From positions 1,054,001 to 1,118,000 of the forward strand of contig NC_022792.1 in NCBI RefSeq assembly GCF_000504085.1: a DNA stretch of 64,000 bases, read 5' to 3'. Below are positions 2,716-58,779 of this stretch, piece after piece. Both the position numbers and the translations under genes were made by a program. Numbering within the stretch: position 1 is the stretch's first letter; each line of letters starts with the position of its first letter. The notes beneath the pieces are model-generated. The model was not told the origin of the DNA. It saw only the letters and a program-made list of their open reading frames with translations, and searched no databases. The DNA comes from Pseudothermotoga elfii DSM 9442 = NBRC 107921 (GTDB lineage: Bacteria > Thermotogota > Thermotogae > Thermotogales > DSM-5069).

Positions 2716-2725
2716 CCTTCTTAGC

Positions 2726-39732: not shown

Positions 39733-39833
39733 AGTTGTAGCAAATATTACAGAAAAAAGAGTAGGTGATCTTAACATCTGGTTTCTACGAATTTCAAAGT
39801 ATAGTGTATATTAAAAGCTTAGGAGGTGTTGTT

Positions 39834-40241
39834 ATGAAATTCACAGATTTTTATCCAGGCCAGAGTCATGTTGAAAAATTTGTCATCACAGATGAGATGG
39901 TCAGAAGTTATGCAGAATTAATCGGCGACAGGAATCCAGTTCATCTGGATGAAAATTACGCACAAACCACTCGTTTTAAGAAAAGAATTTGTCATGGTAT
40001 GCTTGTTGCTTCATTAATATCTAAGGTGCTCGGAATGGATTTTCCCGGGCCGGGTACAATTCTTGTAAAGCAGCAAATCAAATATAAATCGCCTGTCTAT
40101 ATAGATGAAGAAATAGAAATACATGTGAAAGTTAATCAAGTAATTCCCGAGAAACATAGACTTTTGTTAGATACACCTGTGATTAAGAAAGATGGTACAA
40201 CTGTGATAGAGGCTCAAGCAGAGGTATTGTTTGAACAATGA
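39834..40241 (+). CDS. MaoC-like (R)-specific enoyl-CoA hydratase
   Basis: A 135-residue hot-dog fold protein. The hydratase motif is complete: Asp32 and His37 in GDRNPVHLDE, then RFKKRICHGMLVASLIS. This subgroup (PhaJ-like) interconverts trans-2-enoyl-CoA and (R)-3-hydroxyacyl-CoA. The start at 39834 follows AGGAGGTGTTGTT; a TATATT box lies about 27 bases upstream. It overlaps rsmA by four bases. It may feed (R)-3-hydroxyacyl-CoA to the FabG-like enzyme of the cluster at 44-59 kb, but that link is conjecture. Confidence 0.85.
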   Translation: MKFTDFYPGQSHVEKFVITDEMVRSYAELIGDRNPVHLDENYAQTTRFKKRICHGMLVASLISKVLGMDFPGPGTILVKQQIKYKSPVYIDEEIEIHVKVNQVIPEKHRLLLDTPVIKKDGTTVIEAQAEVLFEQ

Positions 40242-42650: not shown

Positions 42651-42684
42651 ATATAGTATAATGGGATCAATTGGGGGAACATCT

Positions 42685-43878
42685 GTGCGCAGACAACCTA
42701 AAAGATCAGATGGAAAGAAAACTTTGAGCAATCTTTTGAATAGTGCCACAAGGCTTTTTGCAGATCGTGGATACTACGGTGTATCGATACCTATGATCGC
42801 GCGTGAAGCAAATGTGAAAAACGCAACATTTTATCAGTACTTTAAAGATAAGGAATCTATTTATAGAAAAATACTTGAAGATTCTTTCAACAAATTCTTC
42901 AACCTCATGATTAAAATTGACGGAAGGGACACAGAGGAAATTCTGGAGTCTTTTTTGATGAATTATCTTGCTTTCTTTTCCAGAAATAGGCAACATTATA
43001 GAATTTTGCATGAGGCAGTTTATTTAAGAAAGGCTACTTTTCGGCGGGTAGAGAAAACTTTGAATGAAGTTTTGCACAGGTTTTTTCCAGAAACACTTGA
43101 CAAAACAAAAGAGATGATTCTCAGATGGTTTATTACAGGTCCGATTCGTTTTATAGCCATATATAAATCTCTTCACGCCGACTACGAAGTTGACAGGAGA
43201 ACCATTGACGACTTGGTTGAATTTCTCATGAAGGGATTTGATCCTGATGCCCATGAACTTGACAGGTCTGTTTTCTATATAGACGTTAAACCCCTTAAAA
43301 TAGAGGTAACTTCTACGAGAATGAAGCTCTTACAGGCTGCTGAAAAACTTTTTGGAACAAGGGGATATAGAAACACAATGATTAGCGATATCACAAGAGC
43401 CGCTAATGTGGCTTCTGGAACATTTTATGTGCACTTTAAAAGTAAGGAAGAGATTCTCGAGGAGCTGGTTATGACTACAAATAAAAATTTGAGAATAACA
43501 CTTTCGACGGCTATAAAAAGATTTCATGATAGGCGCGACGCAGAAATAGCAGGCTTCATGGCATTTCTTAAGTTTTTTATGTTGCACCCGGAAATGTATC
43601 TTATAGTCAGGCAAGCGGAATTTTTTAATCCATCTATATCGCGCAACTATTATGAAAAAATTTTTAACAGCTATCTTTCTCCTTTGAGTGAGGCAATTCA
43701 ATCTGGTCAGTTAAAAAACTATTCACCAAATAATCTGGCTCTTTTCCTCATGGGAATTGGTCATTTCATGGGTGAAGATCTTGTTGTTCAAAAACACGGC
43801 AATATTCAGGAAACAACAGTATATCTTCAAAAGCTCGCCCCTCTTCTTTTCAAAGGTATATCGTTTCTTAAATCATAA
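42685..43878 (+). CDS. Tandem TetR-family regulator (two TetR units in one chain)
   Basis: About 397 residues, twice the usual TetR size. The first HTH (ATRLFADRGYYGVSIPMIAR ... KNATFYQYFKDKESIYRKIL) starts near residue 15. A second HTH (AAEKLFGTRGYRNTMISDIT ... ASGTFYVHFKSKEEILEELV) starts near 215. Each is followed by its own helical ligand domain. The GTG at 42685 is preceded by GGGGGAAC; an isolated TATAAT lies at 42657-42662. One chain could act like a TetR dimer. It lies directly upstream of, and in line with, the cluster at 44-59 kb and is the best candidate to bind the palindrome at 43973. Confidence 0.88.
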   Translation: MRRQPKRSDGKKTLSNLLNSATRLFADRGYYGVSIPMIAREANVKNATFYQYFKDKESIYRKILEDSFNKFFNLMIKIDGRDTEEILESFLMNYLAFFSRNRQHYRILHEAVYLRKATFRRVEKTLNEVLHRFFPETLDKTKEMILRWFITGPIRFIAIYKSLHADYEVDRRTIDDLVEFLMKGFDPDAHELDRSVFYIDVKPLKIEVTSTRMKLLQAAEKLFGTRGYRNTMISDITRAANVASGTFYVHFKSKEEILEELVMTTNKNLRITLSTAIKRFHDRRDAEIAGFMAFLKFFMLHPEMYLIVRQAEFFNPSISRNYYEKIFNSYLSPLSEAIQSGQLKNYSPNNLALFLMGIGHFMGEDLVVQKHGNIQETTVYLQKLAPLLFKGISFLKS

Positions 43879-44001: not shown

Positions 44002-44059
44002 TTAACCTGAATCATCTTTCATATTGATAAATGAGTCACATGTTATTGGAGGTGCTTCA

Positions 44060-45091
44060 GTGGAGCAACATGCAGGTATAGTAAGCGTAGGAACGTATCT
44101 TCCCCAAAAGTACATGACCGCCGAAGATCTGAGTCATCTGGCGTGTATCCCTGTTGATATAATTGTTGAAAAGTTTGGTATAAGAGGGAAATACATTCCG
44201 CGTGATAATGAAACGACAAGTTTCATGGGAATTATGGCTGCAAAAGAAGCTTTGAAAAATGCCGGTATTTCACCTGAAGAAATAGATGTTGTCATCTGGA
44301 ACGGTGCGCAACACAAAGATTATCCGTGCTGGCTTGCAAGCACAAAGGTAGCTCATGAAATAGGCGCAAAAAACGCCTGGGCTTTTGACATGGAAGCGAT
44401 GTGCGGCTCGATGATAGTTGGTCTTCAGGTTGCGCGATCACTCATGCTTTCTGAGAAAAACATAGATACTATTTTACTTGTAAGTGGGTACAGAAACGTA
44501 GATCTTGTGAATTACCAATACAAACACACTTCTTTCATGTTTGATATTGGGGCAAGCGGTTCGGCAATGGTACTAAAGAAGAATTCAGGAAGAAACGTGT
44601 TATTAGGTATCTCAAGCATAGTCGATGGATCTTTCGCCGAAGACTGTGTAGTACCAGTTGGCGGGACAAAAAAATGGCCTTTACAACCTCAAGATCTTGA
44701 AAACTATTATTTTCAGATAAAAGATCCAGAGAATTTCAAAAATCGACTGAATGAAGTGACACTCAAAAATTTCTATTTTGTAATTGATGATGCCCTCAGA
44801 AAAAGCAATTTATCTCGAAAAGACATCTCATATCTGGCAATGCTGCATTTTAAGAGATCTGCTCATCTCTCGGTGCTCAGAGAACTTGGTCTTAGAGAAG
44901 ATCAGACTACTTATTTGGAGAAATATGGGCACATGGGCCAGAACGATCAGGTTTTTTCAATAAAAGAAGGATTACTTTCTGGAAAGATAAAAGATGGCGA
45001 CGTTGTTGTCCTTGTGGGAGCTGGAGTGGGTTGGACTTGGAATGCCGCAGTTGTTCGTTGGGGTAGCTTGAGAGAACCGATTAATTGGTAG
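44060..45091 (+). CDS. KAS III-like (FabH/thiolase superfamily) condensing enzyme, copy 1
   Basis: About 343 residues. The N-terminal GIVSVGTYLPQKYMTAEDL fold resembles FabH and archaeal HMG-CoA synthase. The nucleophilic Cys is in DMEAMCGSMIVGL (about Cys115). The catalytic His region is LHFKRSAH (His263), but the Asn of the usual GN(T/S) motif is replaced in YGHMGQND. It probably makes or breaks a C-C bond in acyl-CoA/ketoacyl-CoA rather than starting fatty-acid synthesis. The start GTG at 44060 follows GGAGGTG. It heads the cluster and lies 11 bases before the CoA-transferase gene. Confidence 0.82.
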   Translation: MEQHAGIVSVGTYLPQKYMTAEDLSHLACIPVDIIVEKFGIRGKYIPRDNETTSFMGIMAAKEALKNAGISPEEIDVVIWNGAQHKDYPCWLASTKVAHEIGAKNAWAFDMEAMCGSMIVGLQVARSLMLSEKNIDTILLVSGYRNVDLVNYQYKHTSFMFDIGASGSAMVLKKNSGRNVLLGISSIVDGSFAEDCVVPVGGTKKWPLQPQDLENYYFQIKDPENFKNRLNEVTLKNFYFVIDDALRKSNLSRKDISYLAMLHFKRSAHLSVLRELGLREDQTTYLEKYGHMGQNDQVFSIKEGLLSGKIKDGDVVVLVGAGVGWTWNAAVVRWGSLREPINW

Positions 45092-45102
45092 GAGGGATTG
45101 CT

Positions 45103-46404
45103 GTGAATTGGAACGATGTTTATAATTCCAAAGTTGTTGATATTGAGAAAATACTGAGTATTGTAAAGTCAAATCAAACAATAGTTGTTGGAATGACACC
45201 GGCAGAACCGAAACTCTTTCTTAGAAATTTACACAAAATAGCTAATAGAGTGAGCAATGTCACGGTATTTACATGTCTAAATATGGAAAGTTATCCATTC
45301 TACATGGATAAATCTTTCAATAATATTTTTGAGAACGCGTCTTGGTATTTTGGTCAATCGAATAGAGAGGCAATGAAAGCTGATTTTGGTACCGTAAGTT
45401 ATGTTCCAAACAATTTACACCAATCAGGGACAAATCTACTTGACAGTCGTCCGATAGACATCTTTGTGGGTGTTGCATCACCAATAGACAAGAATGGTTT
45501 TCTGACCTTGTCTGCATCGGTAGTTTATGAAAAAGATATCGTTGAACAGGCAAAGAATATCGTTTTGGAGGTCAATCCCAACGCTCCAAGAACTCATGGT
45601 GATACTCATATTCACATAAAAGATGTTCATTATGTAGTTGAAGTGGATTATGAACTCCCACAAATTGAACTGGTTGAACCTACAGAAACTGAAGCGCTGA
45701 TTGCACAGCATATAAGTAACTTGATTGAAGATGGTTCGACGATTCAACTTGGTATTGGGGGAATACCAAACGCCGTTGCGAAGTTTTTGACAAACAAAAA
45801 AGATCTGGGTGTTCATACAGAGATGTTTACTGAATCTATGATAGATTTGTTTGAATCTGGTGTGATCACTAATAAAAAGAAAAGCGTTTGGAGAGATAAA
45901 TTCATCTGTGCTTTTGCTTTTGGTACAAAGAGGATGTACCAGTTTGTTGATGATAATCCATCAGTGTTTTTCCTCAGAGGAAGGTATGTCAACGATCCTT
46001 ATGTCATATGCCAGAATGACAAAATGGTGAGTATTAATACAGCATTAATGGTCGATTTAACTGGAAATGTCTGTTCAGAGGCATTGGGCACTCAGCATTA
46101 CAGTGGCACAGGTGGTCAACTCGATACGCATAGGGGTGCTGTCAAGAGCAGGGGAGGTAAAGGGATAATAGCGCTGAGATCAACGGCAAAAGGTGGAACG
46201 GTTTCAACGATAGTTCCCATTTTACCGGCTGGTTCACCGATAACCGTGCCGCGGCAGGAAGTGGATTATGTAGTTACAGAATGGGGTGTGGCATGGTTAA
46301 GAGGTAAAACTGTCAGGGAAAGAGCAAAGGCTTTGATCGAAATTGCACATCCGGATTTTCGAGAAACTCTCAAAAGTGAAGCTCGTAGGTTACAAATTCT
46401 ATAA
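45103..46404 (+). CDS. Acetyl-CoA hydrolase/CoA-transferase family protein
   Basis: 433 residues of the 4-hydroxybutyrate/acetate:acyl-CoA transferase family. DGSTIQLGIGGIPNAVAKFL, then HTEMFTESMIDLF (containing the likely catalytic Glu), GTQHYSGTGGQLD, and RGGKGIIALRSTAKGGTVS are family landmarks. It would move CoA from acetyl-CoA or another acyl-CoA onto a carboxylic acid, activating or releasing it. The start is GTG at 45103 after TAGGAGGG. Its neighbours (condensing enzyme, importers, reductase) suggest activation of an imported acid. Confidence 0.87.
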   Translation: MNWNDVYNSKVVDIEKILSIVKSNQTIVVGMTPAEPKLFLRNLHKIANRVSNVTVFTCLNMESYPFYMDKSFNNIFENASWYFGQSNREAMKADFGTVSYVPNNLHQSGTNLLDSRPIDIFVGVASPIDKNGFLTLSASVVYEKDIVEQAKNIVLEVNPNAPRTHGDTHIHIKDVHYVVEVDYELPQIELVEPTETEALIAQHISNLIEDGSTIQLGIGGIPNAVAKFLTNKKDLGVHTEMFTESMIDLFESGVITNKKKSVWRDKFICAFAFGTKRMYQFVDDNPSVFFLRGRYVNDPYVICQNDKMVSINTALMVDLTGNVCSEALGTQHYSGTGGQLDTHRGAVKSRGGKGIIALRSTAKGGTVSTIVPILPAGSPITVPRQEVDYVVTEWGVAWLRGKTVRERAKALIEIAHPDFRETLKSEARRLQIL

Positions 46405-46425
46405 AAACGAGGGGAGGTGTTTTTT

Positions 46426-47655
46426 GTGAGAAGGCTTTTTGTGTTTCTTGTGTTATTGGTCGCACTCTTTGTCCTGGCTGAAAAACCGATAAAGATCGGT
46501 GCAATCTTGCCATTATCCGATATCACCGGTAGACAAGCAGCCAATGCAATGAAATTAGCCGTCAAAGAAATCAACGATTCTGGCGGTGTACTTGGTAGAC
46601 CCATTGAATTGGTCATAGTAGATGATGAAATGAAACCCGAGAAGGGTGCTGCTGCCGTGGATAAACTCGCCACAGTCGACAAAGTGGATTTCTTTGTTGG
46701 TGGGATGTCAAGCGGTGTTCATCTTGCACAAATTCCAATTTTGAAAAAGTACAAGAAAATCACTGTTTGGATAGGAGCTGCGTCTTACAAATGTGAAGAA
46801 GCCATTGGTGCTGATGCAGATTGGTATTTTCACTTACATCCTTGGGATTATCTACAAGGTGAAAGTTACGCAATAGGTTGGAAAGCCATAACAGAGAAAT
46901 ATCCTCAGGTGAAGATCGAAAAAATATTTTTGGCTTATGAAGAAGGTGCTTTTGGTACGTCATCTTTTAAATCTTACTTGGATGAATTTGAGCTTGCCAA
47001 AAAAGGTACTGGCGTTTGGGCAGGATTGATGAAAGATTTAAAAGGTGCACCATTCAAAAGTGCAGCTCTTGGTGGAGGAGACTACAGAGCCATGCTTTTG
47101 CAAGCAAAACAATATGACCCAGATTTGTTCATTTGGGCAGGTTATGATGCCGATGCGATACCAATGTTGACTCAAGCTAAGGAAATAGGTTTTGCTCCGA
47201 AACTCTTTGTTGGAGCGCCTCCAGGATGGCCTGCCGATTTTGGCAAAAATCCACTATCAAATGGAGTCGTTCTCTATGGCATGTGGGCTCCCGCATTAAA
47301 AGATGTCAGTGCGATTGCAAGACATTTTTGGGATGCATATGTGAAAGAGTTCAACGAAGAACCCGCAACATACTTTGCACCACTTGGTTATACAAACATT
47401 TATTTCTTAATCGAAGCAATCAAGAAGGCTGGTACACTTGATGATAAAGCAATAATTCAAGCCTTAAGAGAGATAGAATATGAATCTCCAGTTGGTGGAG
47501 TATTAAAGATCTCACCAAGTAGAATCATTAAGAATCAAGGTTTCCGAGCACAAAAAATTCTTCAATGGCAGAATGGTGTGCAACATGTAATTTGGCCATT
47601 TGAATATGCCACAGCCGAACTCATCTATCCATTTCCGAGTTGGTCAGGTAAATGA
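46426..47655 (+). CDS. LIV-type ABC transporter substrate-binding protein, system 1
   Basis: About 409 residues. A signal peptide (1-17) precedes KPIKIGAILPLSDITGRQAANAMKLAV and GRPIELVIVDDEMKPEKGAAAVDKL, the classic LivJ/amide-binding fold. Family members carry branched-chain amino acids, amides, urea or short organic acids, including aromatic ones. The GTG at 46426 is chosen because GGGGAGGTG precedes it by six bases. Its ligand is not predictable; the enzymes around it argue for a carboxylic or acyl compound rather than an amino acid. Confidence 0.88.
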   Translation: MRRLFVFLVLLVALFVLAEKPIKIGAILPLSDITGRQAANAMKLAVKEINDSGGVLGRPIELVIVDDEMKPEKGAAAVDKLATVDKVDFFVGGMSSGVHLAQIPILKKYKKITVWIGAASYKCEEAIGADADWYFHLHPWDYLQGESYAIGWKAITEKYPQVKIEKIFLAYEEGAFGTSSFKSYLDEFELAKKGTGVWAGLMKDLKGAPFKSAALGGGDYRAMLLQAKQYDPDLFIWAGYDADAIPMLTQAKEIGFAPKLFVGAPPGWPADFGKNPLSNGVVLYGMWAPALKDVSAIARHFWDAYVKEFNEEPATYFAPLGYTNIYFLIEAIKKAGTLDDKAIIQALREIEYESPVGGVLKISPSRIIKNQGFRAQKILQWQNGVQHVIWPFEYATAELIYPFPSWSGK

Positions 47656-47661
47656 AACAGA

Positions 47662-47685
47662 AAGGCTGGGCGACAGCCCAGCCTT
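47662..47685 (+). terminator. Intercistronic stem-loop after LIV binding protein 1
   Basis: AAGGCTGGGC-GACA-GCCCAGCCTT, a perfect 10 bp stem, followed by only TT then GCC. It likely partially terminates or protects the binding-protein message; the permease ribosome binding site follows 12 bases later. Confidence 0.75.
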
Positions 47686-47707
47686 TTGCCTACAGAGAGG
47701 TGAAAAG

Positions 47708-48622
47708 ATGAAAAAAATCTTCAACTGGAAAATATTCTTTTTGTTGATGTTGATTGCAGTTGCAATTTTTCGTCCATATGCTTTCTTTTATGGACTACAG
47801 AGAGGGAGTCTTTATTCTTTGGTTGCCTTACCACTCGCTTTGATCCTTGGAATAGTCGGATTGTTGAATCTTGCACACGGTGATTTCCTGACCCTTGGAA
47901 TGTACATGGGTTATGTGATTTTCAACCAATTTCATTTTGATCCAATCGTTTCGATGATTTTTATAGGACCATTTCTCTTTCTGATCGGTTTTGCTGTTTA
48001 TAAATCAACGATTGAAAGAGTTTTGAAATCACACCATTTGAATCTCTTACTCATAACCTTTGGAATATCGATCACCTTTGTTGAACTGGTGAACGTATTC
48101 TGGACTTCAAGACCAAGGAATATTTACGTGCCATATGCTGCTCGATCTGTAAATATCTTAGGAATAAGTGTCGGTGCATATGAATTTTTATATGTCATCG
48201 CGGCTATTTTAATTTTGCTCGCGATAATGTTCATTTTGAAAAAAACACGGTTTGGGCAAGCGGCTTTTGCCGTGGGACAGAACCCCAAAGGAGCAGCTAT
48301 AGTAGGTATAAACGTAAAACTGGTTTACACTATCACCTTTAGTTTGGCAACTGCTATGACAGCTGTTTCTGCAGCGTTGATGATGCCAAGAGTTTCCATT
48401 TTTCCAACTGTAGGCGGACCTTTTACCATGAAATCTTTCTGTCTTACTGCAATGGCTGGTCTTGGAAACCTTCCAGGTATCTTGATCTCTGGTATTACTC
48501 TCGGAGTAGTAGAAGCAATAGTACAATCAATTCCCGGTTACAGTGGCTGGTCCGATCTTGTGTTTTTCGGCGTCTTGATCTTGGTGATAGCGATTAGGGC
48601 TTATCGGAGGGCTGAAAGATGA
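47708..48622 (+). CDS. LIV-type ABC permease (LivH-like), system 1
   Basis: 304 residues with about eight helices. The family block LQRGSLYSLVALPLALILGIVGLLNLAHGDFLTLGMYMG and a C-terminal GGPFTMKSFCLTAMAGLGNL region are LivH-like. The start at 47708 follows AGAGGTGAAAAG; the frame reads further upstream through the hairpin without signal. The stop overlaps the LivM-type gene by four bases. Confidence 0.88.
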   Translation: MKKIFNWKIFFLLMLIAVAIFRPYAFFYGLQRGSLYSLVALPLALILGIVGLLNLAHGDFLTLGMYMGYVIFNQFHFDPIVSMIFIGPFLFLIGFAVYKSTIERVLKSHHLNLLLITFGISITFVELVNVFWTSRPRNIYVPYAARSVNILGISVGAYEFLYVIAAILILLAIMFILKKTRFGQAAFAVGQNPKGAAIVGINVKLVYTITFSLATAMTAVSAALMMPRVSIFPTVGGPFTMKSFCLTAMAGLGNLPGILISGITLGVVEAIVQSIPGYSGWSDLVFFGVLILVIAIRAYRRAER

Positions 48623-49530
48623 GAAAAGTTCTTCTCATTATTGGTATACTGGTTTTCATTACATTTCTTCCGATTTTTGTAGATATGTATCTGATTCATG
48701 TTGCCAGCTCGATAATGTTGTTCATGTGCCTTGCACTTAGCTGGGACATGATGTTGAGAACTGGACAACTGTCATTTGGCACAGCTGGTTTTTTCGGACT
48801 CGGTGCTTACGCTGCGGTGATAGCCGTTGATGATTTTGCAATAACTCCCATCATGAGCATATTCATTGGCGCTGTATTTGCCGCAATTGTAGCATTGGGT
48901 GTTGGGATTGCTGTTCTAAAACTCCGAGAAATGTACTTTGCCATCACGACCCTTGCCCTTACCAGTGTTTTCTTGGTACTTGCTCGAAATCTTTCAGATC
49001 TCACTGGTGGTGCAGCAGGCAAAGTGCTTTTCAATGCGATATTCGATGGCGATCCAAAAAAAACTTATTGGTTGATAATGGTTTTTACATTGTTGGTCAT
49101 AGGCATTTCTGAAATCTTTCAGAGGACCAGAATAAGATATGCTATAAGCTCGATAAGAAACGATGAACTTGTTGCGAAATCCAGTGGGATAAATATTTTC
49201 AAGTATTTGCTATTCGTTTTTATTGTTACTTCTGCCATACAGGGAGCGGCAGGAGCTATTTATGCCCAGCAATATGCTTTCGTTGAACCAGAAAGTACTT
49301 TTTCAGCAAATTTCTTATTGCTACCTATCGCCATGGCATTAGTCGGCGGTATCCATTCAACACTTGGACCGATAGTGGGAGCTATAATTTTGGGATTTGC
49401 TTCGGAATATCTGAAGTTGCTGATGCCTTATGGGCACTTGATAATATACGGGATAATAATCATTTTGGTCATAATCTTTTTGCGTAAAGGTGTTTATGGA
49501 ACGATAGTAGATAAAATCAGATCAAATTGA
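48619..49530 (+). CDS. LIV-type ABC permease (LivM-like), system 1
   Basis: 303 residues with about nine helices and the LivM landmarks DMMLRTGQLSFGTAGFFGLGAYAA, KLREMYFAITTLAL and RIRYAISSIRNDELVAKSSG (cytoplasmic coupling loop). It is a plain LivM without an extra C-terminal domain, unlike its system 2 counterpart. It is coupled to LivH by ATGA and followed by the LivG-like ATPase gene. Confidence 0.9.
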   Translation: MRKVLLIIGILVFITFLPIFVDMYLIHVASSIMLFMCLALSWDMMLRTGQLSFGTAGFFGLGAYAAVIAVDDFAITPIMSIFIGAVFAAIVALGVGIAVLKLREMYFAITTLALTSVFLVLARNLSDLTGGAAGKVLFNAIFDGDPKKTYWLIMVFTLLVIGISEIFQRTRIRYAISSIRNDELVAKSSGINIFKYLLFVFIVTSAIQGAAGAIYAQQYAFVEPESTFSANFLLLPIAMALVGGIHSTLGPIVGAIILGFASEYLKLLMPYGHLIIYGIIIILVIIFLRKGVYGTIVDKIRSN

Positions 49531-49544
49531 TCGGAGGTTTTTCT

Positions 49545-50261
49545 ATGGAACTATTGCGACTTGAAAATGTGACAAAATATTTCGGAGGACTTGTGGCAGT
49601 AAACAATGTGAGTTTTGAAATACAGGAAAATGAAATCTTAGGCATAATAGGGCCCAACGGTGCGGGTAAAACTACTCTTACCAGTTTGGTGGCAGGAACA
49701 CTTCAACCTTCTGCTGGAAGAATCTTTTTCAATAGCAAAGATATCACTGGAATACCTGCACATATAAGAGCCCAACTGGGTATCTCAAGGACTTTCCAAA
49801 CTGTGAGACCACTGAGAGACTTTACAGCACTTGAAAACATTGTTGTTGGAGCACTTTTTGCAAAAGGTGAAAAACTCAGCAAAGCGATCGAGAGCGCAGA
49901 AAAAGTATGTGAATTTCTCAAACTCGAGCGTAAGGATTTTTACCCCGACAAACTCACCGTCTTTGAGTTGAAAAAATTGGAGATAGCAAGGGCAATTGTT
50001 TCAGATCCAAAAGTACTCTTTTTGGACGAAGTGATGGCTGGTTTAAATCATGAAGAGATGAAAGAGATGATAGAGATAGTTAAAGCTTTGAGAAATAAAG
50101 GCATGGCAATTTGCGTCATAGAACACGTTATGAGCGTTATAAGCGAACTAACCGACAGAGTCGTAGTCCTTGACAGAGGTGAGATAATTGCCCAAGGTCC
50201 ATACCAAGAGGTTTCTCAGGACAAGCGTGTCATAACGGCGTACTTGGGGGAGGAAGATTAA
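49545..50261 (+). CDS. LIV-type ABC ATPase (LivG-like), system 1
   Basis: 238 residues. Walker A is GPNGAGKTT, followed by the LivG-typical LGISRTFQTVRPLRDFTALENI. The signature region reads LTVFELKKLEIARAI rather than a standard LSxGxQ, and Walker B is LFLDEVMAGL. The start is ATG 49545 after CGGAGG; the frame starts slightly upstream but lacks a ribosome binding site. The atypical signature (VFELKK) and DEVMAGL are seen in part of the LivG family. It is overlapped by one base with the next ATPase gene. Confidence 0.88.
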   Translation: MELLRLENVTKYFGGLVAVNNVSFEIQENEILGIIGPNGAGKTTLTSLVAGTLQPSAGRIFFNSKDITGIPAHIRAQLGISRTFQTVRPLRDFTALENIVVGALFAKGEKLSKAIESAEKVCEFLKLERKDFYPDKLTVFELKKLEIARAIVSDPKVLFLDEVMAGLNHEEMKEMIEIVKALRNKGMAICVIEHVMSVISELTDRVVVLDRGEIIAQGPYQEVSQDKRVITAYLGEED

Positions 50262-50965
50262 TGCTTGAAATAAAAGATCTCAATGTTGCTTATGGTAAGA
50301 TTCCAGTTATCTGGGACCTATCGTTAAATATAGATTCAGAGGCTGTTGGATTGTTTGGACCAAATGGTGCAGGTAAGACAACTCTGATAAACTGTATCCT
50401 TGGCTTGATCAGACCGGTGAGTGGTACTATAAACTTTGAAGGGCAAAATATAGTTGGAATGGAAACTCACAAGATTGCACGTCTTGGCATTGCTTTAGTA
50501 CCTCAAGAAAGAGAACTCTTCCCACTCATGAGTGTTGAAGAAAATCTCAAAGTCGGCGCAGCCTATATTCCACATGCGAGAAATCACATTGTTGATAGTA
50601 TGAACTTTGTTTTCACAATTTTTCCAGTTCTCAAGGAAAGGCTTTCTCAAAAGGCAGGTACAATGAGCGGAGGAGAACAAAGAATGCTCGCGGTAGGTAG
50701 GGCTTTGATGGCTCGTCCAAAGTTATTGATCCTTGATGAACCTTCTGTTGGACTTCAACCGTCGATAGTAATAGAGATGTTCGCAAAGCTCAGACAGATA
50801 AAAAATGAAGGAGTGGCAATACTTTTGACTGAACAAAATGTCAAACAAGGTTTAAAGGTAATCGATAGGGGTTATGTAATCGAAAACGGTAGAATAGTAC
50901 TCGAGGACGAATCAAAAAATCTTGCTCAAAATGAGCACGTGAAGAAAGCATATCTCGGTGTATGA
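50261..50965 (+). CDS. LIV-type ABC ATPase (LivF-like), system 1
   Basis: 234 residues. Walker A is GPNGAGKTT, the signature MSGGEQRMLAVGRALM, Walker B LLILDEPSVGLQPS. IGLIRPVSGTINFEGQNIVGMETH ... LVPQERELFPLMSVEENL is the LivF pattern. With the LivG-like partner it forms the ATPase pair of system 1. It is followed 13 bases later by the FabG-like reductase gene. Confidence 0.9.
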   Translation: MLEIKDLNVAYGKIPVIWDLSLNIDSEAVGLFGPNGAGKTTLINCILGLIRPVSGTINFEGQNIVGMETHKIARLGIALVPQERELFPLMSVEENLKVGAAYIPHARNHIVDSMNFVFTIFPVLKERLSQKAGTMSGGEQRMLAVGRALMARPKLLILDEPSVGLQPSIVIEMFAKLRQIKNEGVAILLTEQNVKQGLKVIDRGYVIENGRIVLEDESKNLAQNEHVKKAYLGV

Positions 50966-50978
50966 AAGGAGTGGATTT

Positions 50979-51725
50979 ATGAGACTTGAAGGAAAGGTTT
51001 GTATTATCACTGGTGCAGCAAGTGGTATAGGTAGGGAGGCATCATTGCTCTTTGCAAAGGAGGGTGCAATAGTTTGTGCTTGTGATCTGGCAAAAGAGCA
51101 GTTGGACAAGTTGGTTGAAGATGCGAATAATTTACCCGGAAAGATCGATCCATACCTTTTGAATGTTACAAAAAGGGAAGATGTCTTCAAGGTCGTCGAG
51201 CAAATCGCCACGAAATACGGTAAGATCGATGTGCTTGTGAACAACGCCGGTATAACAAGAGATGCTTTGTTGGTGAAGATGACCGAGGAAGAATGGGATG
51301 CAGTAATCAATGTAAACCTCAAAGGTGTTTTCAACATGACTCAAGCTGTTGCACCTTACATGATCAGAGCTCAAAAAGGTTCTATCATAAACACATCTTC
51401 AGTTGTTGGCATATACGGGAATGTCGGACAGACCAACTACGCTGCCACAAAAGGTGGCGTGATAGCTATGACCAAGACTTGGGCAAAAGAACTCGCACGC
51501 AAAGGAGCCCAAATAAGAGTCAATGCAGTTGCACCCGGTTTCATCAAGACACCGATGACCGAGAAGGTACCTGACAAGATCATCGAAGCTGTTACGACTC
51601 GAACTGCACTGGCGAGAATGGGAGAACCTGAGGAGGTCGCAAATGTCTATCTGTTCCTTGCAAGCGATGAGTCTTCATTTGTAACAGGCCAGGTCATAGG
51701 TGTCGACGGTGGTTTACAACTCTGA
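50979..51725 (+). CDS. Short-chain dehydrogenase, FabG/3-hydroxyacyl-CoA reductase-like
   Basis: 248 residues of the classical SDR type. The cofactor motif TGAASGIG is at 11-18 and NNAG at 88-91. The catalytic residues are Ser140/141, Tyr154 and Lys158 (NYAATKGG), with a C-terminal TGQVIGVDGGLQL. It is closest to FabG/PhaB (3-oxoacyl-thioester reductase). In this cluster it would interconvert 3-hydroxyacyl- and 3-oxoacyl-CoA. The start at 50979 follows AAAGGAGTG. It sits between the two LIV transporter sets on the same strand. Confidence 0.88.
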   Translation: MRLEGKVCIITGAASGIGREASLLFAKEGAIVCACDLAKEQLDKLVEDANNLPGKIDPYLLNVTKREDVFKVVEQIATKYGKIDVLVNNAGITRDALLVKMTEEEWDAVINVNLKGVFNMTQAVAPYMIRAQKGSIINTSSVVGIYGNVGQTNYAATKGGVIAMTKTWAKELARKGAQIRVNAVAPGFIKTPMTEKVPDKIIEAVTTRTALARMGEPEEVANVYLFLASDESSFVTGQVIGVDGGLQL

Positions 51726-51739
51726 AAGGGGGTATTTTC

Positions 51740-52903
51740 ATGAAGAAGTTTTTAACTCTTCTGGCAGCGCTGGTTTGCATCCTTGTTCTGGCTGAAGTTG
51801 GTGTATACAGCGACAAAATAGTCGTAGGTTCTTTCCAGGCTCTTTCTGGTTCTTACGCAATAATTGGGCAGGAGATGTCTAAGGGAATGAAAGCCTATTT
51901 TAACTGGGTCAACAAGAACTCTGGTGTCTATGGAAGGAAAATCGAACTCATAATAGCAGATGATCAACTTAATCCATCAAAAACTGTGGTAGAAGTGAAA
52001 AGGCTTGTTGAATCCGACAAAGTCTTTGCAATCGTAGGAGGGCTTGGCACATACGGTTGTCTTGCTGTTATGGATTATTTAGAGCAGAATAAAGTACCAT
52101 TTGTGTATCAGGGAGCCGGGACCAGTTTACTTGTTATGCCACCCAAGAAATATATTTTTGGGGTGCAGCCAGATTACACCCTCGAGGGACAGCTCATAGC
52201 TAAATTTCTTGTTAAAGAGCTTGGTAAGAAAAAAATAGCGATTCTTTACATGGCAAACGATATAGGAAAAGAAGGATATGCAGCAGCTCTCAGCAGATTA
52301 CAATCGTACAATTTGAAACCTGTCGTTGAAATAAGTTACAACCCGGCCGAAACAGATTACAGTGCTCTCGCCGTAGATGTTCTGAATGCGAATCCCGAAG
52401 CAATTATTATATATGGGCTCATAACAGATACCATAAGATGGATCAAGACGCTGAGAGATTATGGTGTGACAAGTGATATAGTCACTATCTATCCAAACGC
52501 GGATCCAAGCCTTGTTACATTGGGAGGAAAATATGTGGAAGGAATTTATCTAACGGGCTGGGTCCCACTTGCAACGCCAGACAAACCTGAATTTGTCAGG
52601 GATTATGAACGAGCTGTTGCAATATTTCAGGAGACTTATCCCAAAGAAATTCCATCCTCATATGCCGTTGCCGGATTCATTGCTGCGGAAGTTTTTGTAC
52701 AGGGGCTGCTTCGAGCAGGTTCTGATTTAACCAGAGAAGGACTTGTAAAAGCTCTTGAGACCTTTGATCATTGGAATGGCATCCTGGCAAAAGATATAAC
52801 CTGGGGCCCGAATTTGAGGCGAGGAAAGTCCAGTATGTATTTCATAAAAATCGAAAACGGCGTCTTTGTCCCAGTAACAGATCTCATCTCATTGCAGGAT
52901 TAG
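51740..52903 (+). CDS. LIV-type ABC transporter substrate-binding protein, system 2
   Basis: 387 residues. A signal peptide (1-19) precedes DKIVVGSFQALSGSYAIIGQEMSKG and RKIELIIADDQLNPSKTVVEVKRLV. The fold is that of LivJ-like proteins, but the sequence differs strongly from the system 1 protein. It includes VPFVYQGAGTSLLVMPPKKYIFGVQP and a hinge region YSALAVDVLNANPEAI. The ribosome binding site is AAAGGGGG. It is followed by a long hairpin and the second ATPase-permease set. Confidence 0.88.
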   Translation: MKKFLTLLAALVCILVLAEVGVYSDKIVVGSFQALSGSYAIIGQEMSKGMKAYFNWVNKNSGVYGRKIELIIADDQLNPSKTVVEVKRLVESDKVFAIVGGLGTYGCLAVMDYLEQNKVPFVYQGAGTSLLVMPPKKYIFGVQPDYTLEGQLIAKFLVKELGKKKIAILYMANDIGKEGYAAALSRLQSYNLKPVVEISYNPAETDYSALAVDVLNANPEAIIIYGLITDTIRWIKTLRDYGVTSDIVTIYPNADPSLVTLGGKYVEGIYLTGWVPLATPDKPEFVRDYERAVAIFQETYPKEIPSSYAVAGFIAAEVFVQGLLRAGSDLTREGLVKALETFDHWNGILAKDITWGPNLRRGKSSMYFIKIENGVFVPVTDLISLQD

Positions 52904-52912
52904 TTTTTTTGG

Positions 52913-52939
52913 AATGAAGGGGCAAATTGCCCCTTCATT
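52913..52939 (+). terminator. Intercistronic stem-loop after LIV binding protein 2
   Basis: Nearly uninterrupted inverted repeat AATGAAGGGGCAA / TTGCCCCTTCATT around a single A; in practice an 8-11 bp stem with a small loop. It has no T-tract. It lies 15 bases before the TTG start of the next gene. Confidence 0.75.
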
Positions 52940-52953
52940 ATGGAGGTGAAAAA

Positions 52954-53724
52954 TTGTCACTTCTGGATATTAGGAACTTAACTGTCAAATTTGGAGGCTT
53001 AACGGCCATTGAAGATTTTTCTATGAATGTAAAAGAAGGTGAAATTCATTCTCTTATAGGTCCCAACGGTGCTGGAAAGACAACGGTCTTTAATGTCATA
53101 ACAGGGGTTGTCAAACCAGTAGCTGGAAGAATATTATTTGACGGTACCGATATAACAAAAGAAGAAACACATAAAATTGTCAAATTTGGTATAAGCAGGA
53201 CTTTTCAAAGTGTTGTTGTGTTTAAATATATGACTGTCCTGGAAAATTTGTACCTTGGTTATCACAGCAGGTTGAATATCAGTATGCTGAATGAGATTAT
53301 TCCAAATAAAAAAAGTTCAGAACAAATCTGGAATATGTACAGATCTGCCCTCGAAATAGCAGATTTTCTTGATTTAAAAACAAGGCTCTTGAGTTATGCC
53401 GGAATGATTCCATTTGCCGCCCAAAAAATGGTCGAAATTGGCAGGGCATTGATGAGCAAACCAAAACTGCTGCTTCTTGACGAACCAGCTGCTGGCTTGA
53501 CAGAAGTTGAAACAGAAAAGCTCAAGAAAATAATCAGATTAATAAGAGACAAATTGAAGATAACCATCTTGCTTGTTGAACATGATATGCCCATCGTTAT
53601 GAGTATTTCAGACAAAATAACAGTCCTGGACTTTGGCAGAAAGATAAGTGAAGGTGCACCTGAGCAGGTTAGAAAAGATCCGAAAGTTATAAAGGCATAT
53701 TTGGGAGAGAGTGAAAGTGCTTGA
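52954..53724 (+). CDS. LIV-type ABC ATPase (LivG-like), system 2
   Basis: 256 residues. Walker A is GPNGAGKTT; FGISRTFQSVVVFKYMTVLENLYLGYHSR is the LivG pattern. The signature region is MIPFAAQKMVEIGRALM and Walker B is LLLLDEPAAGLTEVE. The start is TTG at 52954 after TGGAGGTGAAAAA; the frame reads upstream into the hairpin. It overlaps the LivF-like gene by eight bases. Confidence 0.88.
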   Translation: MSLLDIRNLTVKFGGLTAIEDFSMNVKEGEIHSLIGPNGAGKTTVFNVITGVVKPVAGRILFDGTDITKEETHKIVKFGISRTFQSVVVFKYMTVLENLYLGYHSRLNISMLNEIIPNKKSSEQIWNMYRSALEIADFLDLKTRLLSYAGMIPFAAQKMVEIGRALMSKPKLLLLDEPAAGLTEVETEKLKKIIRLIRDKLKITILLVEHDMPIVMSISDKITVLDFGRKISEGAPEQVRKDPKVIKAYLGESESA

Positions 53725-54415
53725 GATAAAAAGTATAACAGTACAATATGGACCTGTCATTGCTGTGAAGGAAATTTCCATGGATATACGGCAAAAAGGT
53801 ATTACTGTATTACTTGGGGCAAATGGAGCGGGCAAGACATCTACTTTAATGGCAATTGCTGGTTTGAATGATCTTTCTCATGGCTCAATATTTTTTGAAG
53901 GGAAAAGAATAGACAGGTTGCCAGCCTATGAAAGAGTGAGAAAAGGCATTGTTCTCTGCCCCGAGAGCAGATTGGTTTTTCAAAAAATGACCGTTATGGA
54001 AAATTTGAAAGCAGGTGCATATACGAGAAAAGGTGGTATTTCAGGGGAGTTTGACCTTGTTTTTTCTATTTTTCCGAAACTCAAAGACAGAGCGAAGCAA
54101 CTTGCAGGGACACTTTCTGGAGGAGAAAGACAAATGCTCGCCATAGCAAGAGCTTTGATGAGTAAACCAAAGCTTCTGATGCTTGACGAACCTTCAATGG
54201 GCTTAGCACCAAATCTGGTTGTTGAAATGATGGCAGCAATCAAACAGATCAATGAAACAGGTGTAACTGTGCTTTTAGTTGAGCAAAACGCGTTCAGCGC
54301 GTTAAAAATTGCCGATTATGCGTATGTTCTTCAAACAGGAAAAGTGGTTCTTGAAGGATCTGCAGAAGATTTATTACAAGATAAAACAATTGTTGAGCAG
54401 TATCTGGGAGGATGA
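53717..54415 (+). CDS. LIV-type ABC ATPase (LivF-like), system 2
   Basis: 232 residues. Walker A is GANGAGKTS, the signature LSGGERQMLAIARALM, Walker B LLMLDEPSMGLAPN, with VLCPESRLVFQKMTVMENL before them. GTG at 53717 fits the GGGAG ribosome binding site (nine bases); GTG at 53711 is an alternative. It partners the preceding LivG-like ATPase. Confidence 0.88.
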   Translation: MLEIKSITVQYGPVIAVKEISMDIRQKGITVLLGANGAGKTSTLMAIAGLNDLSHGSIFFEGKRIDRLPAYERVRKGIVLCPESRLVFQKMTVMENLKAGAYTRKGGISGEFDLVFSIFPKLKDRAKQLAGTLSGGERQMLAIARALMSKPKLLMLDEPSMGLAPNLVVEMMAAIKQINETGVTVLLVEQNAFSALKIADYAYVLQTGKVVLEGSAEDLLQDKTIVEQYLGG

Positions 54416-54417
54416 TT

Positions 54418-55296
54418 ATGATATTAAATAGACTGATTCTCGGATTGTCGACAGGTTCTTTTTATTCGTTAGTAGCCCTCGGTATTGTAATTATATACAA
54501 AACAACCGGGTTGATGAATTTCGCTTTTGGAAATATGGCCATGTTCATGGCTTATATAGCATACACCTTCGTAACAATTGGAGTAGGGCCAGTCTGGGCT
54601 TTGCTTTTCACAATACCTGTAGCTGCTCTATTCGGTTTTGCTGTTGAAAAATATACCCTCAGGCCAATAAGAAATCTTTCACACAGTTCGATGTTGATTA
54701 TCACGCTTGGAATTCTTATGATTCTGGAAGGTCTTGTGGTTCAAATATGGGGTACACAATATAAATCTTTTCCAGAGCTTGTAACGGGACGCCCGTTCAT
54801 CTTGAGGGGAAATTTCGGCATAGTTGTGTTCAGAAGGCAGGATATACTTGTTTTCAGCATCTTGATAGCTGTATCTGTAGCGATTTTTTTCATTCTGAAA
54901 TATACAAGATCAGGTATTGCCATCAAAGCTGTTTCAGAAAATGAAAATGTAGCTCAATTAATGGGTATTAATCCTTCGCGTGTATTTTCTATTTCCTGGA
55001 TGATCGGTACCGCTGTCGGTACTGTTGTCGCTCTGCTTGGGGCACCAAAAACATATGTTTCACCAACCATGATGCTTTTTTATCAGCTCCAAGGATTCAC
55101 AGCAGCTGTTTTAGGGGGATTCGACAGTTTTGCCGGTGCGATTTTGGGAGGCCTCACCCTCGGTGTTATAGAGACTTTCGTTGGTGGATATATAAGCAAT
55201 GAATTAAAAACAACTTTTTCGCTGGCATTGATAATTGCCGTTTTGCTCATCAGACCGCAGGGATTTTTTGGAAGCCGGGAAGTCAGGAGAGTGTGA
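54418..55296 (+). CDS. LIV-type ABC permease (LivH-like), system 2
   Basis: 292 residues with eight helices. LILGLSTGSFYSLVALGIVI and YKTTGLMNFAFGNMAMFMAY at the N-terminus and LQGFTAAVLGGFDSFAGAILGG near the end match LivH. The start is ATG 54418, six bases after GGGAGG; an ATG at 54412 overlaps that ribosome binding site. It precedes the unusual LivM-hydrolase fusion by a few bases. Confidence 0.9.
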   Translation: MILNRLILGLSTGSFYSLVALGIVIIYKTTGLMNFAFGNMAMFMAYIAYTFVTIGVGPVWALLFTIPVAALFGFAVEKYTLRPIRNLSHSSMLIITLGILMILEGLVVQIWGTQYKSFPELVTGRPFILRGNFGIVVFRRQDILVFSILIAVSVAIFFILKYTRSGIAIKAVSENENVAQLMGINPSRVFSISWMIGTAVGTVVALLGAPKTYVSPTMMLFYQLQGFTAAVLGGFDSFAGAILGGLTLGVIETFVGGYISNELKTTFSLALIIAVLLIRPQGFFGSREVRRV

Positions 55297-55299
55297 AAA

Positions 55300-56985
55300 A
55301 TGCATTGGCTTTTATTGATAATTACACTTGTTGTCCTTCCATTTATTTTCAAATCAAGCACCTTCATTTTAACTATCATGAATCTGACAATGATTTACAC
55401 AATGGCTGGTATGGGATTGAATTTGATAATGGGTTATACGGGACAGGTATCCATAGGTCACGCAGCTTTTATGAGTATAGGTGCGTATACTTCAGCAATA
55501 TTAACACAAAGACTATCAATACCATTGCCACTGAGCTTGATATGTGCTACAGCTATTGGTGGTATTTTCGGGCTGGCCCTGGGTTTTCCAGCACTCAGGC
55601 TTGCTGGTTTTTACTTGGCGATAGCCACGATGGGTTTTGGTATAGCAATAGAGCAACTTTTTGGCGCTCTCGAAAATTTTACAGGTGGTCACATAGGAAT
55701 TCGCAACATAACAAAATTAGGTAGTGAGCTCGAAAGCTATTACATCATTCTGATATTAATTATCGTTGCATTCTATTTTTTCAACAAACTTGTCAATGGA
55801 AAAACCGGGAGGGCATTGAAAGCCATTAGAGAAAACGAATTGGTAGCAAATGTTTTGGGTGTCAATCTAACTCATTACAAAGTACTTTCTTTTGTAATAG
55901 GTTCTGCTTACGCTGGTTTGGCAGGAGCTTTATATGCCCACGTTATTGGGTATATATCACCAGCTGATTTTGGTCTTGGTAAATCTTTAGAATTGCTCGC
56001 TGTAGTAGTTATTGGCGGAATGGGTATGGTATCCGGGCCGATTTTTGGCGCTGTGTTCTATACAGTTTTACCTTTTTTCCTGAGCCGGGTAGGTTTCTCA
56101 CTTTCAATCATTTTTGGTTCGGTTCTTGTTCTTGTTGTGCTCTTTATGCCAAGAGGTATAGCATATTACGCGCAACGTTTTTGGTTTAACTGGGCCGAAC
56201 TACCGCTGATAATCTTCAAGCGAAAAAAAGTATCACCCGATGGAGATTATGTGGAACTCAGTTTTGGAAAAATGCATTATGTTCAAAGTGGAGATGGAGA
56301 AAAGGTTATTCTGTGTATTCATGGAAATTTTGGTTCTTACAGATGGTACAAACCAATGATGGAAAAAGTTCATGGGTATAAAATAATAGCCATAGATTTG
56401 CCAAATTTCGGCGATTCGTCACGATCAACAGTTTCGCTCGATTTTTACGCAGATTCCGTACATGAATTTATCGAGAAGATGCAAATAAAACCATCTGTTA
56501 TTGCCCATTCCCTTGGTGGCGCAGTGGCAATGTTACTTGCCAAGAAATACCCAGATTCGATTGCTTCTCTTATACTGGTTGATCCATGCCCTGCCGACGG
56601 ACTTGTTACTCCAAATGAGAATCTCCCATATCTGAAATTTTACAAAAGAAGCAGGATTTTGCTTAAAAAATCATTAACTGGCCTTCTGAGGAAACTTAAA
56701 GATAAAAAGTATTTCGAGCAACTTGTTGACGATGCCCTCAAAATGAATCCGGAAAGTATATACACTCACGCGATAGAACTTGGAAAGTTCAGATTATCTA
56801 TCGATACTTATTCTGTTCCAACTGTTGTTGTTTATGGAGATTTAGATCCGCTTCTGACAAAAGAACAGATGTTAAAAACAGCCGAAGTACTGAAAGCAAA
56901 GTTAATTGTGCTTGAAAATGTCGGGCATACTCCATTTGTTGAAGTTCCAGATCTTTTCATAGAAACTGTTAAAAATTATCTGTGA
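55300..56985 (+). CDS. LivM-like permease fused to a cytoplasmic alpha/beta hydrolase, system 2
   Basis: 561 residues in one uninterrupted frame. Residues 1-290 are a LivM permease (GYTGQVSIGHAAFMSIGAYTS, LRLAGFYLAIATMGFG, coupling loop GRALKAIRENELVANVLGVN). After a short linker (about 291-315) comes an alpha/beta hydrolase. It has oxyanion HGNFG (341-345), nucleophile Ser404 in AHSLGGA, acid Asp514 or Asp516 in GDLDPLL, and His543 in VGHTPFVEVP. LivM C-termini normally face the cytoplasm, so the hydrolase would meet substrate as it enters. All catalytic residues are present. A sequencing frameshift is unlikely, because no stop or overlap separates the halves and no second start is needed. 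Confidence 0.92.
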   Translation: MHWLLLIITLVVLPFIFKSSTFILTIMNLTMIYTMAGMGLNLIMGYTGQVSIGHAAFMSIGAYTSAILTQRLSIPLPLSLICATAIGGIFGLALGFPALRLAGFYLAIATMGFGIAIEQLFGALENFTGGHIGIRNITKLGSELESYYIILILIIVAFYFFNKLVNGKTGRALKAIRENELVANVLGVNLTHYKVLSFVIGSAYAGLAGALYAHVIGYISPADFGLGKSLELLAVVVIGGMGMVSGPIFGAVFYTVLPFFLSRVGFSLSIIFGSVLVLVVLFMPRGIAYYAQRFWFNWAELPLIIFKRKKVSPDGDYVELSFGKMHYVQSGDGEKVILCIHGNFGSYRWYKPMMEKVHGYKIIAIDLPNFGDSSRSTVSLDFYADSVHEFIEKMQIKPSVIAHSLGGAVAMLLAKKYPDSIASLILVDPCPADGLVTPNENLPYLKFYKRSRILLKKSLTGLLRKLKDKKYFEQLVDDALKMNPESIYTHAIELGKFRLSIDTYSVPTVVVYGDLDPLLTKEQMLKTAEVLKAKLIVLENVGHTPFVEVPDLFIETVKNYL

Positions 56986-56998
56986 GGAGGTAAAAACG

Positions 56999-57982
56999 AT
57001 GAAATATGCGAAAATAATCTCTTCTGGTATGTATGTCCCACAAAAAATAATGACTAACAAAGAATTTGAACAAATCACCAATATGGTCATCGATCCATAT
57101 TTTACCGAGCAGATAGGTATAAATCACAGGCACATATCTCAATCTCATGAAACGCCAACATTTATGGCAGCAGAGGCTGCAAAAAAAGCTCTTGAGAGGA
57201 TCAATATGAAACCAGAGCAGATCGATTTGATAATACTTGGTACAGATACACCTGAAGCTGTTTCTCCACCTGATGCTGCTCGAGTTCAATATCTGATTGG
57301 TGCAAATAAAGCTGAACCACTGGCCTTTAACGTTAATGCCTCATGCGCAAATGGTGCTTTATTACTTGACATAGCATCTCGATACATCGCACTCGGAGAT
57401 TACAAAAATGTTTTAGTCATAGGTGTCTATGCTATGACAAAGTTTTTGAACTGGAAATATTCCTGGGAAGCTCTGTTTTCCGATGGTGCTGGTGCTTTGA
57501 TATTGACGGCAGATGATAAACCAGGCTATCTTGGAAGTGTTTCAAGATGTGATGGAAGCTGGTGGCATAACTGGGGCATCTACATGGGTGCTGGAACTAT
57601 GAATATCGAAGGCATTGATAGAGGTCTTCACAAACTCGACTTGAGGGCGGCTTATCCTGCTACTGTGAACGAAGAAGGCTGGCCTGTACTAATCAACAAA
57701 TTAATTGAAAAATGTAAGATCTCAAAAGAAGAAATCGGAATGATGTTTTTCACACAGGTGAGAAAGAAAACCATACTGAAAGTCATGGAAATTCTTGGCA
57801 TGAGTGAAGACAAAACTCATATGATAATGGACAAATATGGTTATACAGGTTCTGCATGTGTTTACATGGCTTATGATGATGCTTTCGACTGTGGGAAGAT
57901 GAGAAACATGGAGGGTAAGGTTCTGATCTTTTTGACTTCAGGAGTTGGATTTCAGCAGGTTGCGGTAGCTTTCAGGTGGTAG
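56999..57982 (+). CDS. KAS III-like protein, copy 2, with altered active site
   Basis: 327 residues of the FabH/thiolase superfamily. KIISSGMYVPQKIMTNKEFE, LIILGTDTPEAVSPPDAARV and NVNASCANGALLLDIA (nucleophile Cys116) are present. The His of the KAS III triad is Gln253 in MFFTQVRKKT. The Asn position reads GYTGSA (Tyr282) instead of GNTxxA. Decarboxylative condensation as in FabH is therefore unlikely; acyl transfer or another Cys-only reaction is possible. The start follows GAGGAGG. It is distinct from copy 1 at 44 kb. Confidence 0.83.
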   Translation: MKYAKIISSGMYVPQKIMTNKEFEQITNMVIDPYFTEQIGINHRHISQSHETPTFMAAEAAKKALERINMKPEQIDLIILGTDTPEAVSPPDAARVQYLIGANKAEPLAFNVNASCANGALLLDIASRYIALGDYKNVLVIGVYAMTKFLNWKYSWEALFSDGAGALILTADDKPGYLGSVSRCDGSWWHNWGIYMGAGTMNIEGIDRGLHKLDLRAAYPATVNEEGWPVLINKLIEKCKISKEEIGMMFFTQVRKKTILKVMEILGMSEDKTHMIMDKYGYTGSACVYMAYDDAFDCGKMRNMEGKVLIFLTSGVGFQQVAVAFRW

Positions 57983-57984
57983 GT

Positions 57985-58779
57985 ATGTTCAAAACAAGTG
58001 ATGGAATTATGATAGATTACAAAGTTCAGGGTGAATCAGAAGAAGTTGTTGTTTTTCTCAACGGTATTTTCATGGATTACAACAGCTGGTTTTTTATCAC
58101 AGAGCAGCTTAAAGGTCAATATAGAATCATTCTTCACAATTTCAGGTGTCAGTGGAGCTCGCAAAACGGTTCGTGTAGTTTCGAAAGGCACGTTGAAGAT
58201 CTCAAAGAACTCCTTGATTATTTAAAGATCAGCAAAGTGCATCTGGTTGGAACATCTTATGGTGCAGAAGTTGGAATGTTTTTCGCTGTCAGATATCCAG
58301 AGTTGGTAAAATCTCTCACGATTATAACCGCGACAGCCCGTATAACGCCATCTATCAAATACAAAGCTCTGAGATGGAAAGATGGTGCGATGAGTAAAAA
58401 TAAAGAGATATTTGTCAGAAGCTGGATCAACGATGTCTACAGCGAGCAATTTCTTGACAGATATCCAAACCTGTTCGGCACAATTATTCAACGAATGTCG
58501 CAGTTCAATTACGAAGGAGCAGTAAAATTGCTGGATGCCTTCCTTGAGCTTGAGCGAAAACCTTTGTTAAATCAACTTTCGAAGATAGGTGCACCTGCGC
58601 TTGTTGTTTCTGCCCAATTTGATAACATAAAACCAGTGAACTTTTCACAGGAAATAGCACAGCAAATACCCGGCGCTAAGCATGTGTGCATTCCAGATTG
58701 TGGCCATGCCGCGGTAATTGAAAAGCCAAAGGAGGTACTTTTTCTGATAAAAGCGCATCTGTTTTTCCTGAAAAACTAA
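57985..58779 (+). CDS. Alpha/beta hydrolase, stand-alone
   Basis: 264 residues. Nucleophile Ser91 in VGTSYGAEVG, acid Asp213 in SAQFDNIKP, His241 in DCGHAAVIEKP. The usual HG oxyanion is LNGIFMDYNSW. It belongs to the same broad fold as the permease-fused hydrolase but is only distantly similar, so it is not a recent duplicate. No signal peptide, so it is cytoplasmic. The start at 57985 follows AGGTGGTAGGT and is one base after the preceding stop. It is the last gene of the cluster. An esterase or C-C hydrolase role is possible; the substrate is unknown. Confidence 0.85.
   Translation: MFKTSDGIMIDYKVQGESEEVVVFLNGIFMDYNSWFFITEQLKGQYRIILHNFRCQWSSQNGSCSFERHVEDLKELLDYLKISKVHLVGTSYGAEVGMFFAVRYPELVKSLTIITATARITPSIKYKALRWKDGAMSKNKEIFVRSWINDVYSEQFLDRYPNLFGTIIQRMSQFNYEGAVKLLDAFLELERKPLLNQLSKIGAPALVVSAQFDNIKPVNFSQEIAQQIPGAKHVCIPDCGHAAVIEKPKEVLFLIKAHLFFLKN

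Follow-up and report, generated by a model that had tools for sequence, protein, structure and literature searches.

Does the gene for the second LivM permease of Pseudothermotoga elfii, which runs on without interruption into an alpha/beta hydrolase, encode a genuine fusion protein, and what would such a protein do for the cell? We addressed this question in a window of 64,000 nucleotides (the whole stretch of DNA that was analysed) and followed the fusion and its parts into related genomes.

A LivM permease joined to an alpha/beta hydrolase

The fusion gene occupies 55300..56985 on the plus strand, with an ATG at 55300, a stop codon at 56983-56985 and 561 open codons. The preliminary description of this DNA had claimed a single uninterrupted 561-residue frame with a LivM permease and a hydrolase, and this was borne out by the reading frame and by Pfam. 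The LivM part (BPD_transp_2, PF02653; residues 23-266, 55366..56097, plus strand) matches its model with an E value of 3.5e-42 and with 144.8 bits against a curated cut-off of 26.8, and the operon supplies LivH, LivG, LivF and a substrate-binding protein (SBP). The hydrolase domain (residues 336-555, 56305..56964, plus strand) matches Abhydrolase_1 (E 6.5e-25) and Abhydrolase_6 (E 4.5e-20), is modelled by AlphaFold2 with a pLDDT of 93, and combines the correct fold with the nucleophile elbow, acid, histidine and oxyanion motif of a serine alpha/beta hydrolase. On the plus strand, these are the oxyanion motif H341-G342-N343 (56320..56328), the nucleophile Ser404 within H403-S404-L405-G406 (56509..56511), the acid Asp516 (56845..56847) and the catalytic His543 (56926..56928). 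All six residues (H341, G342, N343, S404, D516 and H543) are unchanged in 26 of 26 aligned full-length fusions; the oxyanion motif, Ser404 and His543 had been recognised from the start, and the acid, then left unnumbered, is Asp516. The LivM of the paralogous system 1 (48619-49530, 303 aa) lacks the extension, as had been described. A free hydrolase could possibly start internally at an in-frame GTG at 56251 (residue 318), which is preceded at five bases by GGAG; because I or L frequently occupies this residue in relatives, we do not think that the start is conserved.

A whole-genome search found a full-length in-frame fusion, spanning query residues from 12 or earlier to 545 or later and with no internal stop, in 46 of 103 Thermotogota genomes. 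Six more genomes carry an in-frame fusion that is partial or reaches a contig end, so that the joint recurs in 52 of the 103, and the earlier claim of a fusion proved genuine. The homologues (38-66% identity) are spread over many genera and families; the fusion is missing from several others, including genus g5, with seven genomes and from the same order as the query. In close pairs with usable estimates, dN/dS was 0.07-0.13 for the LivM half and mostly 0.08-0.20 for the hydrolase half. Values of about 0.1 in both parts indicate that both halves are under purifying selection. The fusion is a phylum-wide architecture in about half of the Thermotogota and no oddity of one genome. An assembly or sequencing artefact that joined two adjacent genes might be suspected from the separate adjacent genes of some relatives (G058, G061, G062 and G063); its probability is negligible, as the joint is uninterrupted in independent genomes of many genera, and its recurrence across the phylum rules it out.

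Domains tethered to ABC importers sometimes have regulatory roles, and the hydrolase might accordingly be a catalytically dead domain with a regulatory or scaffold role in the importer. We regard this as very improbable, because the triad and oxyanion residues are retained in all 26 fusions, dN/dS is about 0.1 and the domain is linked with an acyl-CoA pathway.

Two loci depart from the intact frame. The fusion of G030 (L058, 9560-11033) has frame breaks in both halves and is likely a pseudogene or the product of sequencing errors. In G006 (L019, about 2662-3165), an insertion of ~0.45 kb, whose two ends resemble each other in inverted orientation (TGTTGGACCTGTCAACTTAAG ... CTTAAGTTGACACCTCCCAATGTTTGGACC), breaks the hydrolase half and leaves the LivM half intact; this locus is a natural transporter-only variant of the fusion.

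In phylogenetic trees, the LivM domains taken from fusions group in one clade (support 95/97), in keeping with a single origin of the fusion. One clade (95/99) likewise unites the hydrolases of Thermotogota, Spirochaetota and Trueperaceae, and in it fused and standalone enzymes are intermixed. The simplest reading would be a single fusion event, later fission, and transfer or loss of the hydrolase. In genus g26 (the four genomes with separate genes named above), LivM and the hydrolase are adjacent genes, an arrangement that may be either pre-fusion or re-split; the LivM of G058 lies at or near the base of the fused-LivM clade. The gap between the two genes of G058 (L060, 7050-7347) consists of repeat-like DNA with inverted stretches (GTCATCCC...GGGATGAC), and looks as if a repeat element had split the fusion. 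Outside the Thermotogota, a fusion was found among the matches listed in a Spirochaetales MAG (L092), possibly through transfer or mis-binning.

Membrane side and substrate of the hydrolase

Between the two domains lies a positively charged linker (residues 283-316, 56146..56247, plus strand), which across 26 fusions has a mean of 7.2 K+R against 1.1 D+E; the LivM loop 165-192 has means of 4.5 and 2.0, respectively. The C-terminus of this permease class is cytoplasmic. Together with the positive-inside rule applied to the linker charge, this suggests that the hydrolase is cytoplasmic, and the inner face, where the preliminary description had placed it, is supported as its most likely location. 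The AlphaFold2 model of the whole fusion (pLDDT 76, pTM 0.61) is good for the hydrolase and weak for the LivM part, because the alignment is shallow, and it places a low-confidence helix at 287-310 in the linker. LivM-LivG fusions were sought as topology evidence with a concatenated query, which returned, among the best 40 plasmid matches, only adjacent separate genes, and the LivM/LivG pair of the query genome is split by a stop; the topology thus rests on charge and family knowledge.

The closest solved match of the hydrolase by profile is the PHB depolymerase PhaZ of Bacillus thuringiensis (E 5e-45), which is also the top solved match by single sequence and the top Foldseek match (8ynv, E 1.3e-21, TM 0.83), with aryl and thermophilic esterases close behind in the fold search. 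The NCBIfam model of intracellular scl-PHA depolymerases, NF050089, matches 23 of 23 members and is the top model for the window protein, which scores 107 bits and thus falls below the curated cut-off of 300. The PcaD, MenH, BioH and RutD families also match. The lipase box of the hydrolase is A/G-H-S-L-G, with no Trp before the nucleophile, whereas that of the intracellular scl-PHA depolymerase family is G-W-S-x-G (PMC2666664). The score and the lipase box together indicate that the hydrolase is not PhaZ itself.

A PHA synthase (PhaC) was found in none of the 41 genomes searched, and a secreted Esterase_PHB depolymerase was not found in the query genome. A role as depolymerase for the cell's own PHA granules was also considered, and is ruled out by the absence of PhaC from these 41 genomes. 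Because both enzymes are lacking, small esters taken up from outside, not granules, should be the substrate; with no secreted PHB depolymerase in the genome, any oligomers would have to come from other organisms. The preliminary description had listed hydroxyalkanoate oligomers among candidate substrates, which was a good guess in that PhaZ is the nearest solved enzyme and the islands described below supply enzymes that would lead from 3-hydroxybutyrate to acetyl-CoA. Of the bonds that it had considered, an ester is probably the one cleaved; amide or C-C cleavage has nothing in its favour beyond distant family resemblance.

The genomic island and a proposed import pathway

The fusion lies in an island of genes on the plus strand. 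Its genes include a double-domain TetR-type regulator (42661..43878), named from its sequence and recurring in the islands of relatives, followed by the KASIII-like KAS1 (44024..45091; above the cut-off of NCBIfam PRK06840), a CoA-transferase resembling butyryl-CoA:acetate CoA-transferase (45085..46404), Liv system 1 (LivK1, H1, M1, G1 and F1; 46417..50965; reading frames and Pfam) and a dehydrogenase resembling FabG or acetoacetyl-CoA reductase (50958..51725). The importer of the fusion comprises the substrate-binding protein LivK2 (51740..52903; Peripla_BP_6, E 3.8e-69; synteny kept), the ATPases LivG2 (52927..53724) and LivF2 (53711..54415), assigned by reading frame and neighbourhood, and LivH2 (54412..55296), the partner permease of LivM2, which is separated from the start of the fusion by 3 bases. 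Directly downstream of the fusion are the KASIII-like KAS2 (56999..57982) and a second alpha/beta hydrolase with PcaD-like scores, HYD2 (57976..58779); these two, like the CoA-transferase and the dehydrogenase, were assigned by family searches. The solved SBP matches of LivK1 and LivK2 were uninformative, those of LivK2 being solely SBPs without informative ligands.

The islands of relatives recur with a similar set, namely a CoA-transferase of the butyryl-CoA:acetate type, a FabG-type dehydrogenase, an acetyl-CoA acetyltransferase, KASIII-like proteins, a second hydrolase and the double-domain TetR. The cleanest island, L159, runs on one strand in the order HYD2-KAS1-FabG-TetR-CoA-transferase-thiolase-LivK-LivG-LivF-LivH-LivM:hydrolase; an AMP-forming acyl-CoA ligase is present in L072 and L078, and the thiolase of the query genome is located elsewhere than in the island. 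A cell growing on 3-hydroxybutyrate oligomers would require just such a set of genes. A MaoC-type hydratase (39765-40241), encoded about 4 kb upstream of the island, may also belong to this 3-hydroxyacyl-CoA metabolism. Inspection of KAS2 by eye revealed the KASIII cysteine (NASCAN) and the absence of the HQANxRI histidine (TQVRKKT) and the NYGNT asparagine (KYGYTG); KAS1 keeps the Cys and an LH motif, but has HMGQND. It may be that neither KAS1 nor KAS2 is a decarboxylating synthase; acyl transfer or thiolysis could be their role.

The hydrolase also accompanies Liv cassettes as a standalone gene. Among the matches listed, it lies directly behind LivKHMGF in six Spirochaetota loci (L069, L075, L076, L082, L083 and L085), several of which have HYD2 interposed between cassette and hydrolase. 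It is found directly behind a complete LivKHMGF in a Kosmotogaceae MAG (L081), and behind thiolase-LivKHMGF in three genomes of the Thermotogota genus g31 (L150-L152). In Trueperaceae (L078), it immediately precedes the cassette. This recurrent adjacency makes the hydrolase a steady partner of Liv-type import. The neighbouring Liv systems are of subtype 1, and the fusion involves subtype 2; the pairing is therefore kept with two different Liv subtypes, and the fusion turns a gene neighbourhood into a covalent bond. In a Bacillota MAG (L095, 48-1286), one protein joins a relative of the hydrolase to a MaoC-type hydratase domain, which would connect the hydrolase with 3-hydroxyacyl-CoA chemistry a second time.

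We propose that LivK2 binds a small ester outside the cell, that LivH2, LivM2, LivG2 and LivF2 would import it with ATP, and that the tethered serine hydrolase at the inner mouth would split it to free (hydroxy)acids. The acids could be CoA-activated by the island CoA-transferase, or by the acyl-CoA ligase in some relatives, after which FabG would oxidise the 3-hydroxyacyl-CoA and thiolase would cleave the product to acetyl-CoA. The likeliest cargo would be short-chain 3-hydroxyalkanoate oligomers, for example dimers to oligomers of 3-hydroxybutyrate from other organisms. The general part of this proposal, in which a Liv importer carries a tethered, active cytoplasmic hydrolase that acts on the imported cargo, is in our view very probable; the full explanation, with oligomers of the 3-hydroxybutyrate type feeding the CoA/thiolase route, is one that we favour with considerable reserve. 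It is possible, with distinctly lower probability, that the same tethered machine serves another cargo, such as lactones, acyl esters or other short-acid esters. The PcaD, MenH, BioH and RutD matches and the esterases close to PhaZ in Foldseek would fit such a cargo, and the FabG and thiolase route suits any 3-hydroxyacyl or 3-oxoacyl unit; however, PhaZ tops both the sequence and the fold lists, and the CoA-transferase and acetyl-CoA acetyltransferase suggest C4 units.

Capture of the cargo at the inner mouth would be the benefit of the tether and should be a kinetic one. The preliminary description had gone further and suggested that cleavage is coupled to passage through the membrane and traps the product, which may hold; as a whole, its interpretation is supported in part. 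Alternatively, the tether may merely co-express or stabilise the two proteins at 1:1, with transport and hydrolysis uncoupled, a reading to which we give a substantial but minority chance. It is compatible with the proposed cargo and pathway and denies the tethering benefit alone. The standalone hydrolases beside Liv cassettes and the separate genes of genus g26 speak for it, and imply that some lineages do without the covalent link; such lineages, and the broken hydrolase beside an intact LivM in G006, also count against tethering as an essential element of the explanation that we favour. On the other hand, the fusion, once formed, has been retained in about half of the phylum and in many families. 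At the opposite extreme, the LivH/LivM channel might pass the ester directly on to the tethered active site, and cleavage at the membrane would then make uptake irreversible. Such vectorial hydrolysis, which would be a hydrolytic counterpart of group translocation, we consider rather unlikely.

The fusion and known systems

No description of a LivM-hydrolase fusion was found in the open-access literature searched, in which any fusion of an ABC importer permease to an enzyme that breaks down what it presumably imports also appears to be undescribed. The fusion hints directly at the function of a Liv-type importer whose routine annotation would be amino acid transport, and points to a pathway by which thermophiles without PHA synthesis of their own would scavenge short polyesters. 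Its fused, split and insertion-broken natural variants provide a clean system for studying the effect of tethering on uptake, and, if the cargo is confirmed, it would constitute a thermostable module for the uptake and use of polyester breakdown products.

Like the branched-chain amino acid ABC importer LivFGHM-J/K of the HAAT family, the system combines an SBP, LivH, LivM, LivG and LivF in one operon, but its LivM has a C-terminal hydrolase and its operon is accompanied by genes for acyl-CoA enzymes, which suggests a cargo other than amino acids. With PhaZ of B. thuringiensis (PDB 8ynv; NF050089) the hydrolase shares the Ser-Asp-His triad and the His-Gly-Asn oxyanion motif, whereas it is shorter, has His instead of Trp at position x1 of the lipase box, falls far below the family cut-off, and is tied to a membrane permease in a host without PHA synthase. 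The standalone hydrolases of Spirochaetota, unfused Thermotogota and Trueperaceae belong to the same clade and are accompanied by the same island enzymes, and differ in being encoded by a separate gene where here the enzyme is joined to LivM. In LplT-Aas fusions, an MFS-type membrane transporter is joined to an acyltransferase, which modifies in the cytoplasm what the transporter has brought in. The LivM-hydrolase fusion resembles them in linking a transporter to a cytoplasmic enzyme that would act on the import, although the proteins are unrelated.
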